Assembly (NCBI GenBank): GCA_945860865.1 | Contig: CAMARW010000003.1 | Location: forward strand, 1 to 59,176 | DNA length: 59,176 nucleotides | Reading direction: 5' to 3' | DNA from: Chitinophaga pinensis | Lineage (GTDB): Bacteria; Bacteroidota; Bacteroidia; UKL13-3 | Shown here: one piece after another, positions 34,164-41,404 of the stretch | Position numbering within the stretch: position 1 is the first letter of the stretch | Layout: every line of letters starts with the position of its first letter | Program-made: the position numbers and the translations under genes | Notes under the pieces: model-generated | Database searches by the model: none | What the model saw: only the letters and a program-made list of their open reading frames with translations | Told to the model about the DNA's origin: nothing

Positions 34164-35558
34164 TTAAACAAAAATACGCACAATATAGTAAGTTAATCCT
34201 GCTAAAACTGCGCTTACTGGTATTGTTAATATCCATGCCCAAAGTAAGTTTACGGTAACTCCCCAACGTACAGCAGATAATCGTTTGGTAGCACCTACTC
34301 CAATAATAGAACCTGTAATGGTATGTGTAGTACTCACTGGAATACCCATTTGCTCTGTCATAAACAAGGTTAGGGCTCCGGCAGATTCTGCAGTAACACC
34401 TTCTAGTGGTGTAACTTTGGTGATCTTTGAACCCATGGTTTTAACAATTTTCCAGCCACCACTCAATGTGCCTAAACCAATAGCGGCGTAACAAGCCAAT
34501 GGCACCCAATCTGGCATTTGTTTAAAATCTGTGATGTTTCCATTGGCCAACATGGCAGCAGAAATGATACCCATTACTTTTTGCGCATCGTTTCCTCCAT
34601 GTCCAATACTAAACGCAGCAGATGATAGTAGTTGCAACTTTTTAAACATGTTTGAGATTCTAAAGGCGGTAGGTGTTTTTACCTTTTCAACATAAATATA
34701 TGTCAAAATAAACAGGCCAATTAAAAACATAATACCCCAAACAATGCTCGAATTGTCGGCTTTTGACAAATCCTTGCTTAGCTTTTTTGTGTCTATGCTT
34801 TGGTCTATTTTAGCCATTTCTGAGGCAACATTTTCAGCACCCAAACTATTATACTGCTTTATAATGGGTTTGGTTAGTTCAAAGTTGGATAACGCCAAAT
34901 CTAATTTAGATTGAACCAAAGGATCTGTTTCAAGTGCTTTTTGATATTTATCTATTTGATAATATTTAGCTAGGTTGGTTTCTAGTTTATTTTGTTCCAG
35001 TTGGTCAAATAAAAAGAATGTTCCAATAGCAACAAGTATAATTATTCCTATTCTGTACCATACGTTTCGCATTATAGTTACTAAAGTAATAAACATAGAA
35101 ATAGCCATACCCATTATAGGAGCAATAAAAATAAATAAAACCGTTTTGGTAATTTTATCCATCTCCACAATTTTGGGTAATGTAACCCCATTGGTGGTTA
35201 AAAAAGCATGTGCAATGGCCGCCCCGGCAAATCCTCCAATGAGCGTGTGTGATGAACTAGAAGGAATGCCATACCACCAGGTAAATAAATTCCAAATAAT
35301 GGCGGCAATTAATCCGGCAAAAATTACTTCTAGGGTTATAAATTCTTTGTGAACAGTTTTTCCAATGGTATTTGCTACGGCGTGGTCTTTGAAAATAAAG
35401 AAGGCAACAAAATTGAAAAAGGCAGCCCAAATTACAGCCTGAACAGGCGTTAATACTTTGGTAGAAACAATGGTAGCTATTGAATTGGCTGCGTCGTGAA
35501 AGCCATTGATATAATCAAATACCAAAGCTAAAATGATGATAATTACTAAAAATGTCAT
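34164..35558 (-). CDS. PiT-family inorganic phosphate transporter
   Basis: A 464-residue membrane protein of the PHO4/PiT family. The duplicated signatures are DYINGFHDAANSIATIV (about 15-31) and FSIGHGGNDAQKVMGII (about 317-333), each holding the GFHDxxN or GxNDxQK motif for phosphate and cation binding. STTHTITGSIIGVG near the end is the second family repeat. It imports phosphate with H+ or Na+. A ~90-residue soluble insert near the middle is common in Bacteroidota. The gene follows the DUF47 gene by 14 bp. A second PiT paralogue lies at 40001-41404. Confidence 0.92.
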   Translation of the reverse strand: MTFLVIIIILALVFDYINGFHDAANSIATIVSTKVLTPVQAVIWAAFFNFVAFFIFKDHAVANTIGKTVHKEFITLEVIFAGLIAAIIWNLFTWWYGIPSSSSHTLIGGFAGAAIAHAFLTTNGVTLPKIVEMDKITKTVLFIFIAPIMGMAISMFITLVTIMRNVWYRIGIIILVAIGTFFLFDQLEQNKLETNLAKYYQIDKYQKALETDPLVQSKLDLALSNFELTKPIIKQYNSLGAENVASEMAKIDQSIDTKKLSKDLSKADNSSIVWGIMFLIGLFILTYIYVEKVKTPTAFRISNMFKKLQLLSSAAFSIGHGGNDAQKVMGIISAAMLANGNITDFKQMPDWVPLACYAAIGLGTLSGGWKIVKTMGSKITKVTPLEGVTAESAGALTLFMTEQMGIPVSTTHTITGSIIGVGATKRLSAVRWGVTVNLLWAWILTIPVSAVLAGLTYYIVRIFV

Positions 35559-35572
35559 GCTAAACGCCTTAA

Positions 35573-36220
35573 TTATGCGTACTTAACTACTATTGATTCC
35601 ATCACATTGGCGGCATCTTCAAATTTATCTGTGGCAATTTCCATTACCTGGTAAATTTCCCTTTTCTTGATGAGCATTTTTACATCGTTTTCTGTTTCAA
35701 ATAAGCGTTCTATGCACATATCAAATAAATCATCTGCTTGGTTCTCGTATGTATTTACTTTGGCAATAGCATCTGTGATGTTGCGCATGTTTTTCATATT
35801 GCGCAATTCTAAAACAGCTATTTTAATAGATTCTGCTCCCAATGCAATGATATCTGCCATTTTCTGAATACCGCTATCACTTGGGTCAACTTTATAAAAA
35901 TTGATTTTTTTAGCTGATGCATAAATATAATCGCATATATCATCTAATGCATTTGCCAAATGATGTATGTCTTCTCTATCGAATGGAGTAATAAAGTTTC
36001 TACCAAGTTCATTAAAAATCTGATGTGTTAGATTATCGTTGTTGTGCTCTAAATCCTCTAACTTTTTTATTACAACTCCACGTCTACTAAAATCAGGTTC
36101 AGCTACTACATCTTTCATTAGTCGGCCCATTTCTGCCACATTTAGGGCTACTTGTTCAAATAATGAGTAAAACACCTTGTCTTTAGGTGTAAATAATTGA
36201 ATAATCGCGTTAAAATTCAT
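35573..36220 (-). CDS. DUF47 (PhoU-like) PiT accessory protein
   Basis: A 215-residue all-helical protein of the DUF47/PhoU-like family. It contains LFEQVALNVAEMGRLMKDVV (about 20-39), KLEDLEHNNDNLTHQIFNEL, and IDREDIHHLANALDDICDYI with the D-I-x-x-L-x-x-x-L-D-D metal-binding pattern. These proteins regulate PiT transporters from the cytoplasm. It is first in the operon with PiT and is divergent from the phosphate porin, with the phased TTAACA array between them. Its orientation and pairing make it one of the clearest functional units in the window. Confidence 0.9.
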   Translation of the reverse strand: MNFNAIIQLFTPKDKVFYSLFEQVALNVAEMGRLMKDVVAEPDFSRRGVVIKKLEDLEHNNDNLTHQIFNELGRNFITPFDREDIHHLANALDDICDYIYASAKKINFYKVDPSDSGIQKMADIIALGAESIKIAVLELRNMKNMRNITDAIAKVNTYENQADDLFDMCIERLFETENDVKMLIKKREIYQVMEIATDKFEDAANVMESIVVKYA

Positions 36221-36263
36221 TTGTTTTAATTTTCTGGAACAAACTTAAAATAATTGTACCGAC

Positions 36264-36335
36264 TTAACATTATGTTAACAATAACTTAATATTCTTGCGG
36301 CCAGTTCTTAACAATTTATTATTAATTATTTAACA
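36264..36335. promoter_or_regulatory. Putative Pho box: TTAACA repeats in 11-bp register
   Basis: TTAACA occurs at 36264, 36275, 36308 and 36330, with TTAATA at 36286 and TTATTA at 36319. All starts are multiples of 11 bp apart (11, 11, 22, 11, 11). PhoP/PhoB-class response regulators bind 11-bp-spaced direct repeats, and TTAACA is the form known from Bacillus. The array lies between two divergent phosphate-uptake operons. Confidence 0.55.
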
Positions 36336-36418
36336 TTGGCTCATTGCTTTTAATGTTATGTAGTTGAATGCTAAATGTTTGTAATTTTAAAGAAAAAAAC
36401 CAATGTTAATTTATTTGT

Positions 36419-37639
36419 ATGTATCAAATTAAAAAAAAATCTCAATTAATCGTAGTTTTAACTTTATTTATGCTCTCTAATGCATTTGGGCAGGATAAAG
36501 TTGAGTCTAGTTCAAACTTAATCTCCAAAAAATGGTATGAGTCTTTTTCAATTAGGGGTTATCAGCAAGTTAGGTATAATCGTTTATTTGAAACTAATGA
36601 CAAATTAAAATGCGAGCAATGCGATCGTTCATGGGGGGAGAATGGCGGTTTTTTTATTAGACGAATGCGCATAATTTTTTCTGGTCAAATTAATAAAAGG
36701 GTTTATTTCTATGTGCAGCCTGATTTTGCAAGCTCTGCAAGTGCTACAAGTTTGCATTTTGGGCAATTGCGCGATGCTTATCTAGATTTAGGATTGGATG
36801 ATGATAATGAATTTAGGTTCAGAATTGGCCAAAGTAAAATTGCCTATGGTTTCGAAAATATGCAATCGAGTCAGAATCGTTTAGCATTGGATAGAAACGA
36901 CGCTTTAAATAGTGCTGTGGCTAATGAACGAGATTTGGGTGTGTTTTTTTATTATGCACCTAAAAACATAAGAAAATTGTTTAGTGAACTGATTAGTTCT
37001 GGCTTAAAAGGCAGTGGTGATTATGGCGTTTTTGGGTTGGGGGCTTATAATGGCCAAACAGCTAATAAACCAGAATTAAATAATGAACCTCATGTTTTTA
37101 CTAGACTGGCTTATCCTTTCAAAATAGGTAATCAAATTATTGAGCCTGCTTTGCAGGGCTATTCGGGGAAATTTGTTATTGCTAAAGATCAGTTAAGTAC
37201 AGGTGTAAAAACTAATGCAGATCAAAACTATTTGGATCAACGCGCGGCAGCTTCATTAATCTTGTATCCAAAACCTTTTGGTATTATGGCCGAATATAAT
37301 GTGGGAAGAGGTCCAGAATTTAACAAAGAAACAGACTCTATAGAAGTGCGTGATTTGCATGGTGGGTATATTACTTTAAGTTATTATCAAAGAATTGGAA
37401 AGCAACTTATCATCCCTTTTACTAGGGTACAATACTACCAAGGAGGAAAAAAGCATGAGAGAGATGCAAGAAGCTACGATGTGAAAGAACTTGAAATTGG
37501 AACAGAATGGCAGCCCAATAAGAACTTTGAATTAGTGGTTATGTATACTTTTTCCAATCGTAGATTCGAAGATTTTGCACTTCAGAACAATCGCCAAATT
37601 GGTCAATTAATGCGTGTTCAAGCACAATTTAATTTTTAA
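36419..37639 (+). CDS. Phosphate-selective porin (OprO/OprP family)
   Basis: A 406-residue outer membrane beta-barrel with signal peptide (cut after NAFG). The family pattern GGFFIRRMRIIFSGQINKRV (about 80-99) and FRFRIGQSKIAYGFENMQSS (about 139-158) is followed by alternating strands, and it ends in Phe (RVQAQFNF) as BAM substrates do. Relatives form anion channels induced by low phosphate. It is divergent from DUF47-PiT across the Pho-box-like array, which supports phosphate as its substrate. A strong hairpin terminator follows. Other Bacteroidota members of this porin family are only annotated by similarity. Confidence 0.85.
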   Translation: MYQIKKKSQLIVVLTLFMLSNAFGQDKVESSSNLISKKWYESFSIRGYQQVRYNRLFETNDKLKCEQCDRSWGENGGFFIRRMRIIFSGQINKRVYFYVQPDFASSASATSLHFGQLRDAYLDLGLDDDNEFRFRIGQSKIAYGFENMQSSQNRLALDRNDALNSAVANERDLGVFFYYAPKNIRKLFSELISSGLKGSGDYGVFGLGAYNGQTANKPELNNEPHVFTRLAYPFKIGNQIIEPALQGYSGKFVIAKDQLSTGVKTNADQNYLDQRAAASLILYPKPFGIMAEYNVGRGPEFNKETDSIEVRDLHGGYITLSYYQRIGKQLIIPFTRVQYYQGGKKHERDARSYDVKELEIGTEWQPNKNFELVVMYTFSNRRFEDFALQNNRQIGQLMRVQAQFNF

Positions 37640-39934: not shown

Positions 39935-39951
39935 CTAACAATTAATTCACA
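39935..39951 (+). promoter_or_regulatory. Weak Pho-box-like pair upstream of the second PiT gene
   Basis: CTAACA (39935-39940) and TTCACA (39946-39951) are spaced exactly 11 bp. Both are single variants of TTAACA. There is no third repeat in register, so this is weak support only. Confidence 0.2.
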
Positions 39952-40000
39952 ATTCCATAATATTGAACATCGAACAGACTACCTAATATTGCAAAATAAT

Positions 40001-41404
40001 ATGTTTGGATTAGACACATCACTCACTGTACTATTATTAGTTTGCTTGTTGGCTGCGGCCGCTTTTGAATTTATTAATGGTTTTCACGACACGGCAAATG
40101 CGGTAGCAACCGTAATTTATACTAACTCCCTCAAGCCTTGGGCCGCGGTAATTTGGAGTGGAATTTGGAATGCCATAGGTGTTTTTGCTGGCGGTATTGC
40201 AGTAGCTATGGGTATTACAACTTTATTGCCTACAGAACTACTTCTCGATACAAATATCTATCACAATATTGCTCTAATTTTATCCCTACTAATTACAGCC
40301 ATTGCCTGGAATTTAGGTACCTGGTATCTCGGAATTCCTTGTTCAAGTTCTCATACGCTCATAGGTTCTATCATTGGCGTTGGATTAGGTTTCGCTTTTA
40401 TAGCACCAGAAAATGGTTTTAGTTTCGTAAATTGGAGCAAAGCTGGTGATATCGGCTTATCATTAGTGTTATCACCTTTGTTAGGCTTTAGTTTGGCCAT
40501 TTTACTTATGTACATCCTTCGTCAAGTGGTTAGAAGCAAACAAATTTTTAAAGAACCTGCCACTAATGCGCCGCCTCCATTTTGGATTCGTTTAGTTCTT
40601 CTATTAACCTGCACAGGTGTTAGTTTTTCTCATGGTTCTAATGACGGTCAAAAAGGAGTAGGATTAGTAATGCTTATTTTAATTGCTATTGTACCTGGTT
40701 ACTTTACCCTAAATCTAGAAAAAAATACCGCCGATGTGAGAGATCAAGTTACTGAGGTTAAAAACATCATGGCTAAAATTAATCCATCAGAGTTTAATTT
40801 GGATGAGAAACTTAACTACGACAAAGCTAATACATATATACTGCATTTTGATTCTGTATTAAACACTGGAACCGCTATCGCTGATTTGTCAAATCAGCAA
40901 AAAGCTGGCTTAAGAAAAGACATGATTTTAATGGGTAAAGAGGTTAAAAAATTAATGTCGAGTAGCAATCTAAACCTAAGTTTAACCAACAAAAAACAAC
41001 TCAAAAAATCAGTAGACGATTTAAAAGGTATTACAGAATACGCACCTTTCTGGGTAATTATAATGATTTCTTTGAGCTTAGGATTAGGAACTATGATAGG
41101 TTGGAAGAAAATTGTAGTCACAATAGGCGAGAAAATTGGTAAACAACACTTAACCTATGCCCAAGGCGCTAGCGCAGAATTAGTAGCTGCCTCTACCATA
41201 GGTTTTTCAACTTGGTTAGGTTTGCCGGTATCTACCACTCATGTATTATCTTCTGGTATTGCGGGATCCATGGTGGCTAGCAAGGGCATTAAAAATCTTC
41301 AAGCAAAAACAATTAAGAGCATAGCCATTGCTTGGATTCTTACTTTACCCGTTTCAATTATTTTATCTGGGTCTCTTTTCTTACTTTTTAGGTGGATTCT
41401 TTAA
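40001..41404 (+). CDS. Second PiT-family phosphate transporter
   Basis: A protein of 467 residues from the ATG at 40001 (MFGLDTSLTVLLLVCLLAAA), which starts in the first membrane helix; the upstream extension is not helix-like. Family repeats are FEFINGFHDTANAVATVIY (about 22-40) and FSHGSNDGQKGVGLVML. A hydrophilic insert of ~110 residues lies in the middle and GLPVSTTHVLSSGIAGSM near the end. It differs clearly from the first PiT, in particular FSHGSNDGQK instead of IGHGGNDAQK, and has no DUF47 gene next to it. It may have another affinity or cation. Its 3' end overlaps the next gene by 4 bp (convergent). Confidence 0.9.
   Translation: MFGLDTSLTVLLLVCLLAAAAFEFINGFHDTANAVATVIYTNSLKPWAAVIWSGIWNAIGVFAGGIAVAMGITTLLPTELLLDTNIYHNIALILSLLITAIAWNLGTWYLGIPCSSSHTLIGSIIGVGLGFAFIAPENGFSFVNWSKAGDIGLSLVLSPLLGFSLAILLMYILRQVVRSKQIFKEPATNAPPPFWIRLVLLLTCTGVSFSHGSNDGQKGVGLVMLILIAIVPGYFTLNLEKNTADVRDQVTEVKNIMAKINPSEFNLDEKLNYDKANTYILHFDSVLNTGTAIADLSNQQKAGLRKDMILMGKEVKKLMSSSNLNLSLTNKKQLKKSVDDLKGITEYAPFWVIIMISLSLGLGTMIGWKKIVVTIGEKIGKQHLTYAQGASAELVAASTIGFSTWLGLPVSTTHVLSSGIAGSMVASKGIKNLQAKTIKSIAIAWILTLPVSIILSGSLFLLFRWIL

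Follow-up and report, generated by a model that had tools for sequence, protein, structure and literature searches.

A phased TTAACA array between DUF47-PiT and phosphate-porin genes is very probably a PHO box in a Bacteroidota genome

Introduction

In a stretch of 59,176 nucleotides of Chitinophaga pinensis DNA, referred to here as the window, a leftward DUF47-PiT gene pair and a rightward gene for a phosphate-selective porin are separated by a 198-bp intergenic region of 77% A+T in which TTAACA hexamers recur in phase. The locus raises the question of whether this array could serve as a PHO box, in which PhoB or PhoP binds head to tail to direct repeats of 11 nt (PMC4415409), and, if so, which protein would bind it. 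The array is very probably the site of a phosphate-starvation regulator, because the same pattern precedes both the gene of the regulator and the phosphate genes of relatives. More specifically, positions 36264-36335 are read as a PHO box to which the C8 response regulator would bind, with a probability of about 0.87. PHO boxes as a kind are already known; what seems new is the phased box itself, how widely it occurs, and its deployment at DUF47-PiT and porin genes in a genome with no found pstC.

The array and its flanking genes

The array consists of six units on the plus strand (36264..36335). Exact copies of TTAACA start at 36264, 36275, 36308, and 36330, near copies start at 36286 (TTAATA) and 36319 (TTATTA), and all six occupy a single 11-bp register counted from 36264, in which the slot at 36297 is empty. 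The sequence-only reading had described the same four exact and two near copies in one register, and direct rereading reproduced them. The first three units form a core box (36262..36297, plus strand), which genus conservation and a match to the profile R1 (36262-36294, 26.8 bits, E 1.1e-5) mark as the candidate main PhoB operator. A second, porin-proximal sub-array (36304..36339, plus strand) is more weakly conserved: it is partly kept in the genus alignment, and its profile match of 14.0 bits (E 0.14) falls below the best reversed-control match of 17.9 bits.

On the minus strand lie the genes for a DUF47/PhoU_div protein of 215 aa (35573..36220; PF01865, 66.8 bits) and a PiT-type phosphate transporter (PiT/PHO4) of 464 aa (34164..35558; PF01384, 319.2 bits), which are 14 bp apart and presumed to form one operon. 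The opposite flank encodes a phosphate-selective porin O/P family protein (Porin_O_P) of 406 aa on the plus strand (36419..37639; PF07396, 86.3 bits). These family matches bear out the identities that had been proposed for both flanks. A candidate -7 element for the DUF47-PiT promoter reads TAAGTTTG on the minus strand (36240..36247) and is part of CAAACTTAAAATA (36240-36252), a 13-bp block that is invariant across six genomes of the genus; it is of the TAnnTTTG type, the -7 consensus. The element is 16 bp from the array, which would thus overlie the -33 region of this promoter.

The window also contains a second, weaker box on the plus strand (39935..39962), composed of CTAACA at 39935, TTCACA at 39946, and ATAATA at 39957, upstream of a second PiT gene; R1 matches it at 39936-39966 with 19.8 bits (E 0.002). 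Its phased units are present also in L118, L121, and L138, all of which harbor 467-aa homologues of the second PiT. The latter (40001..41404, plus strand; PF01384, 293 bits) likewise has 467 aa from a revised start: translation probably begins at the ATG at 40001 instead of 39920, because the box falls between the two positions and the homologues begin there.

The candidate regulator

The genome encodes four Trans_reg_C regulators, and PhoB is the best NCBIfam family for C8 only. C8 (G000:C8) is an OmpR/PhoB-type response regulator of 225 aa, and its gene is followed by that of a histidine kinase. It scores below the curated PhoB equivalog cut-offs (TIGR02154, 228.9 of 296.2; NF053854, 213.8 of 270), and TIGR02154 is its best family and that of none of the other three. 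Compared with PDB entries, the whole protein is matched best by MtrA; for the DNA-binding domain, E. coli PhoB (3t72/1gxp) ranks sixth at ~1e-17, behind five other chains. The remaining regulators, whose best families are CopR-, RpaB-, and RprY-like, have no R1 match at E≤10 near their genes and were rejected as binders of the array. Near porins, five loci encode six regulators in total. The best match is C8 (57-59%) for the L130 and L158 proteins and one L197 protein, C1 (CopR-like) for the L131 and L157 proteins, and C2 for the other L197 protein.

Arrays at p≤0.05 occur in 27 of the best 30 phoB-like promoters returned, own included, the three that miss this level being those of L086, L088, and L089. 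In 28 of the 30, the start codon follows the beginning of the best array by 69-75 bp. Such arrays at phoB-like promoters indicate that C8 probably acts on its own gene, and we infer that it is the cognate regulator of the box.

Profile matches in the genome and the class

Profile R1 was built from phoB-like and porin promoters of other genomes only and comprises 43 of 50 boxes, preselected at no fewer than 15 of 18 matches (7 were left out). Its training set includes no porin of the same genus. In a scan of the 2.59-Mb genome that scored 150 of 2128 first-look candidates (150 of 3229 for the reversed profile), R1 yields 35 matches at E≤10, and the top five sites exceed the best reversed-profile match of 17.9 bits. 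The strongest is at a TonB receptor gene (C10:23696, 28.7 bits). The porin/DUF47 array ranks second (26.8 bits) and the phoB-like promoter third (26.1 bits), the latter not being independent since phoB-like promoters of the same genus are among the training boxes. An operon of phosphoesterase and glycosyltransferase genes (C10:8187, 20.9 bits) and the second PiT of the window (C3:39936, 19.8 bits) follow. Three of these five sites thus belong to gene types absent from the training of R1, namely the TonB receptor, the phosphoesterase, and the second PiT. At 17.2 bits, below the reversed-control best, a match at C10:26787 lies just upstream of the gene for a secreted protein that follows the TonB receptor; a relative of this protein stands beside the porin in L055 (44% over 257 and 40% over 308 aligned positions). 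Matches at C1:647714 and C9:77342 (17-18 bits) have no evident phosphate link. Arrays between GGGP-synthase-like and ribonucleotide-reductase-like genes, as named from sequence without a family search, are seen in the own genome (L004, G000:C9:77345) and in one relative (L112, G030:C25:79331), and these genes are a possible further target of the regulator.

Over 99 genomes of the class, searched with stricter filters, R1 has a match at E≤5e-4 in 23, own included; at this stringency, therefore, the box is not seen in most class genomes. The scan lists 28 sites, three of them own. Among the 25 others, 12 are linked to phoB-like, pstS, DUF47, Na/Pi, or Porin_O_P genes, as judged by neighbor reading with Pfam for part, and five of the 12 are boxes within the R1 training set. 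Single strong R1 sites mark DUF47 and Na/Pi genes outside this genome. Of the remaining sites, one was left unplaced and one has no neighboring gene; the others include sites at a TonB receptor, a histidine phosphatase, a PLD-like protein, porin-like genes that lack a Pfam match, and genes with no evident link.

Pst and phosphoesterase loci

A search with the pstC model alone (TIGR02138) gives no match in the genome and matches in 89 of 197 class genomes. Thus, the high-affinity Pst transporter seems to be absent here. Within 49 intergenic pieces from the 30 pst loci returned, the 11-bp spacing occurs 10 times vs 0.3 in shuffled sequence.

The phosphoesterase operon couples a Metallophos_2 protein (PF12850), which LpxH models match too, below cut-off, to a glycosyltransferase (PF13528/PF04101), and it resembles lipid remodelling, possibly of the PlcP kind. 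Homologues of the phosphoesterase are found at E≤1e-60 in 40 of 60 genomes. Of 30 loci returned, 28 promoters were scored and 2 gave no motif; 11 of the 28 have an array on the plus strand at p≤0.02. Seven of the ten promoters with identities of at least 73% belong to these 11, and in five of them the array position is almost identical; the 18 more divergent promoters contribute the other four. Membership of this operon in the regulon is less certain than that of the other genes. In L140 (Cytophagaceae), glycosyltransferase-like and phosphoesterase-like genes, identified by sequence reading without a family search, stand beside the porin, as expected for one phosphate regulon.

The best-surviving alternative is that an OmpR-type regulator, possibly C8, binds the array mainly in response to another signal, such as redox or envelope state, and that phosphate genes are a minor part of its targets. 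The PhoP protein of Riemerella anatipestifer, whose published motif is TTTAACA, has been compared to ArcA, with a redox or envelope role proposed there (PMC9603813). The C8 kinase would fit such a scheme in that HisKA and HATPase_c are its only domains above Pfam cut-offs, as would the matches in other genomes at genes without an evident phosphate link. Against it, the genome's own top five sites include the array, the phoB-like gene, and the second PiT; elsewhere, the phased repeat recurs at pst loci, and strong sites precede DUF47, Na/Pi, and porin genes. A mainly non-phosphate signal is accordingly considered improbable, and control by phosphate is preferred.

Conservation at porin promoters

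Porin matches were obtained in 14 of 60 genomes searched (own included), and 12 of these sequences are real orthologues with 57-100% identity. The start codons of the 12 scored orthologues were partly set by hand, and three weak matches (L058-L060, 26-33% identity) were excluded from the set; one of the latter, that of G025, has an array. A three-unit array (at least 15 of 18 matches, shuffle p≤0.01) lies upstream of 11 of the 12 orthologues, own included, with L052 as the one that lacks it. The orthologue of L049 (G014:C69) has an in-frame TGA that splits it into two ORFs, by assembly error or decay. In the alignment of six genomes of the genus, 34 of 36 columns are invariant at 36262-36297 vs 41 of 162 across the remaining intergenic region.

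From GTDB genomes, 374 named porin loci were obtained, and the best 80 formed a broader sample. Their record titles include Chitinophagaceae, Pedobacter, Sediminibacterium, Flavobacterium, Saprospiraceae, Cytophagaceae, and others; those of L168 (Limnohabitans) and L178 (Phycisphaerales) name other phyla and perhaps belong to wrongly titled bins. Scores of at least 15 of 18 are reached by 26 of these best 80 loci; the remaining 54 score below 15. For comparison, 4 of 354 regions upstream of their other genes and 8 of 3200 shuffled sequences attain that score. Cultured environmental relatives with the porin box include Pedobacter cryophilus and Daejeonella oryzae (L125, L164). The sample and the orthologue set overlap in at least one case, as L133 has the same box as L053.

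With the loci nearest the genus (L118-L121) removed, the 76 remaining porin promoters contain 71 same-strand TAAYA pairs spaced by 11 bp, compared with 1.3 after shuffling. Pairs at 22 bp occur 27 times (1.6 shuffled) and pairs at 33 bp occur 21 times (1.5 shuffled), and spacings of 10 and 12 bp account for 1 and 2 pairs. The 354 control regions have some 11-bp excess too (30 pairs, not separated by gene type), and many of the neighboring genes they represent look like pst, DUF47, or PiT genes. The array is therefore conserved in related porin promoters, the comparison that had been proposed as a check.

These data bear on a second alternative, in which phased AT-rich repeats bend the DNA or act as an UP-like element with no specific regulator. 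The 77% A+T of the intergenic region and the helical phasing are what such an element would show. The spacing excess, however, is at 11 and not at 10 or 12 bp, and a reversed model of the same composition and phasing reaches 17.9 bits at best vs 28.7 bits for the true one. The site also holds a near-fixed position in phoB-like promoters. On these three counts plain AT-curvature was rejected, and a bend or UP-like role in general is highly improbable. The array is preferentially read as a regulator site, that is, a PHO box.

The array against chance

When the 198-bp intergenic region is shuffled 5000 times with dinucleotides preserved, no shuffle has four or more phased exact copies and a single one has three; 100 shuffles of the whole window likewise give none with four. 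At other periods (8-10 and 12-14), the real intergenic region has at most one phased copy. A chance cluster of a common AT-rich hexamer (in the window, TTAACA occurs 36 times on one strand and 43 times on the other) is already refuted by the 0/5000 shuffles together with the conservation at porin orthologues and within the genus.

The hexamer or short pairs of it carry little information. A loose two-unit pattern with up to two mismatches occurs 26 times in the window, no enrichment over the 22.9 expected, and the signal is accordingly attributed to the long phased array rather than the hexamer. In the whole genome, a three-unit pattern with up to three mismatches is not enriched either (19 vs 23 in the control). 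With up to two mismatches, six named genomes give 22 sites, left unclassified, vs 14 in the control, and with at most one mismatch, 60 genomes give 30 vs 4, overlapping registers being counted apart. This last search finds 25 non-own loci. Thirteen are near phosphate-linked genes, as assigned with Pfam for part: phoB-like genes, porins, the phosphoesterase/PhoU gap, or the vicinity of polyphosphate kinase. The other 12 have no evident phosphate link. In L093 (G042:C48), a small ORF separates the array from a divergent polyphosphate kinase gene ~360 bp away. A reversed hexamer was dropped as a per-promoter control; ACAATT falls inside real arrays.

The enrichment at other phosphate genes that was proposed as a check is borne out at phoB-like and pst genes. 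Genome-wide at up to three mismatches there is none, and strong sites alone stand out. Together with the conservation at porin promoters, the enrichment at phoB-like and pst genes supports the original proposal of a PhoB/PhoP-type box, as far as sequence comparison can.

Relation to known Pho systems

The PhoP box of Bacillus subtilis is made of TT(A/T/C)ACA repeats. The array shares with it a near-identical hexamer, a pitch of ~11 bp, and the use of several repeats, and differs in that it occurs in another phylum with a Bacteroidota PhoB-type regulator; no common origin of the two boxes is claimed. In E. coli, the PHO box is found also at the regulator's own gene. The box of E. coli PhoB resembles the one described here in having 11-nt head-to-tail repeats upstream of phosphate genes (PMC4415409). 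In the present genome, at least two 11-nt head-to-tail direct repeats likewise lie upstream of phosphate-acquisition genes and at the promoter of the presumed cognate regulator. The E. coli-type core CTGTCAT, in contrast, is absent and replaced by TTAACA, the repeats number up to six, DUF47-PiT is a target, and no pstC was found. As the core varies between species (PMC4415409), a TTAACA core does not exclude a PHO box.

Pho regulation had been thought to be little described in this phylum, and the literature is sparse for the box itself but not blank. No definition of a Bacteroidota PHO box was found, within a partial coverage of subscription journals. R. anatipestifer PhoP shares the phylum and the core, binds upstream of its own phoPR, and has a TonB-receptor target and an outer-membrane target; it differs in being tied to virulence and redox, and the accessible text describes neither an 11-bp array nor a phosphate regulon, the term 'pst' being absent from the main text (PMC9603813). 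In Bacteroides fragilis, PhoB (BF1576) binds the pstC promoter and is required for pstC expression; it is alike as a Bacteroidota PhoB and differs in its target, since no pstC was found here, and the accessible text gives no box sequence (PMC3547664). Predicted Pho boxes have been used for plcP clusters (PMC4796936).

Flavobacterium johnsoniae has a Pi-starvation response, or Pho regulon, and its phoBR cluster includes a porin, a TonB receptor, the lipoprotein FII, and a glycosyltransferase, alongside PlcP; few strains of the genus (26 of 102) have pstS (PMC8115612). Pi depletion induces the TonB receptor and FII lipoprotein, PlcP (pf12850), and the glycosyltransferase (pf04101) (PMC8115612), which may be counterparts of the genes found here. 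F. johnsoniae differs in that the phoBR-linked porin OprP is not Pi-induced (-1.3, p 0.25), and the terms 'pho box', 'motif', and 'promoter' are absent from the main text of that study (PMC8115612). The lack of Pi induction of OprP counts against the PHO-box reading, as do the comparison of the Riemerella protein to ArcA, the scores of C8 below the PhoB cut-offs, the similar numbers of weak matches and control matches, the missing array in L052, and the 54 low-scoring porin loci.

Proposed circuit and implications

In the proposed circuit, low phosphate would lead to phosphorylation of C8, and the phosphorylated regulator would bind the TTAACA-N5 11-bp repeats head to tail. Bound C8 would activate, rather than repress, DUF47-PiT to the left, probably by substituting for a -33 element beside the conserved -7 element, and, to the right, the gene of the phosphate porin. 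It may also act on its own promoter, the second PiT, the TonB-receptor cluster, and the phosphoesterase-glycosyltransferase operon. A more far-reaching version, a Pst-less Pho circuit in which DUF47-PiT under a PHO box replaces PstSCAB-PhoU both for induced uptake and for conveying the phosphate signal to the short kinase, with no PAS domain found in the latter, is tentative and on balance unlikely. If it were true, DUF47 would be the missing link from transport to PhoR.

With the array, phosphate control in many members of the Bacteroidota, a major phylum of soil, water, and gut, would gain an operator that can be read from sequence, and R1 would make phosphate regulons predictable in uncultured members. 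With such a box on DUF47-PiT and porin genes in a genome without a found pstC, how scarce phosphate is sensed and taken up becomes a testable question.
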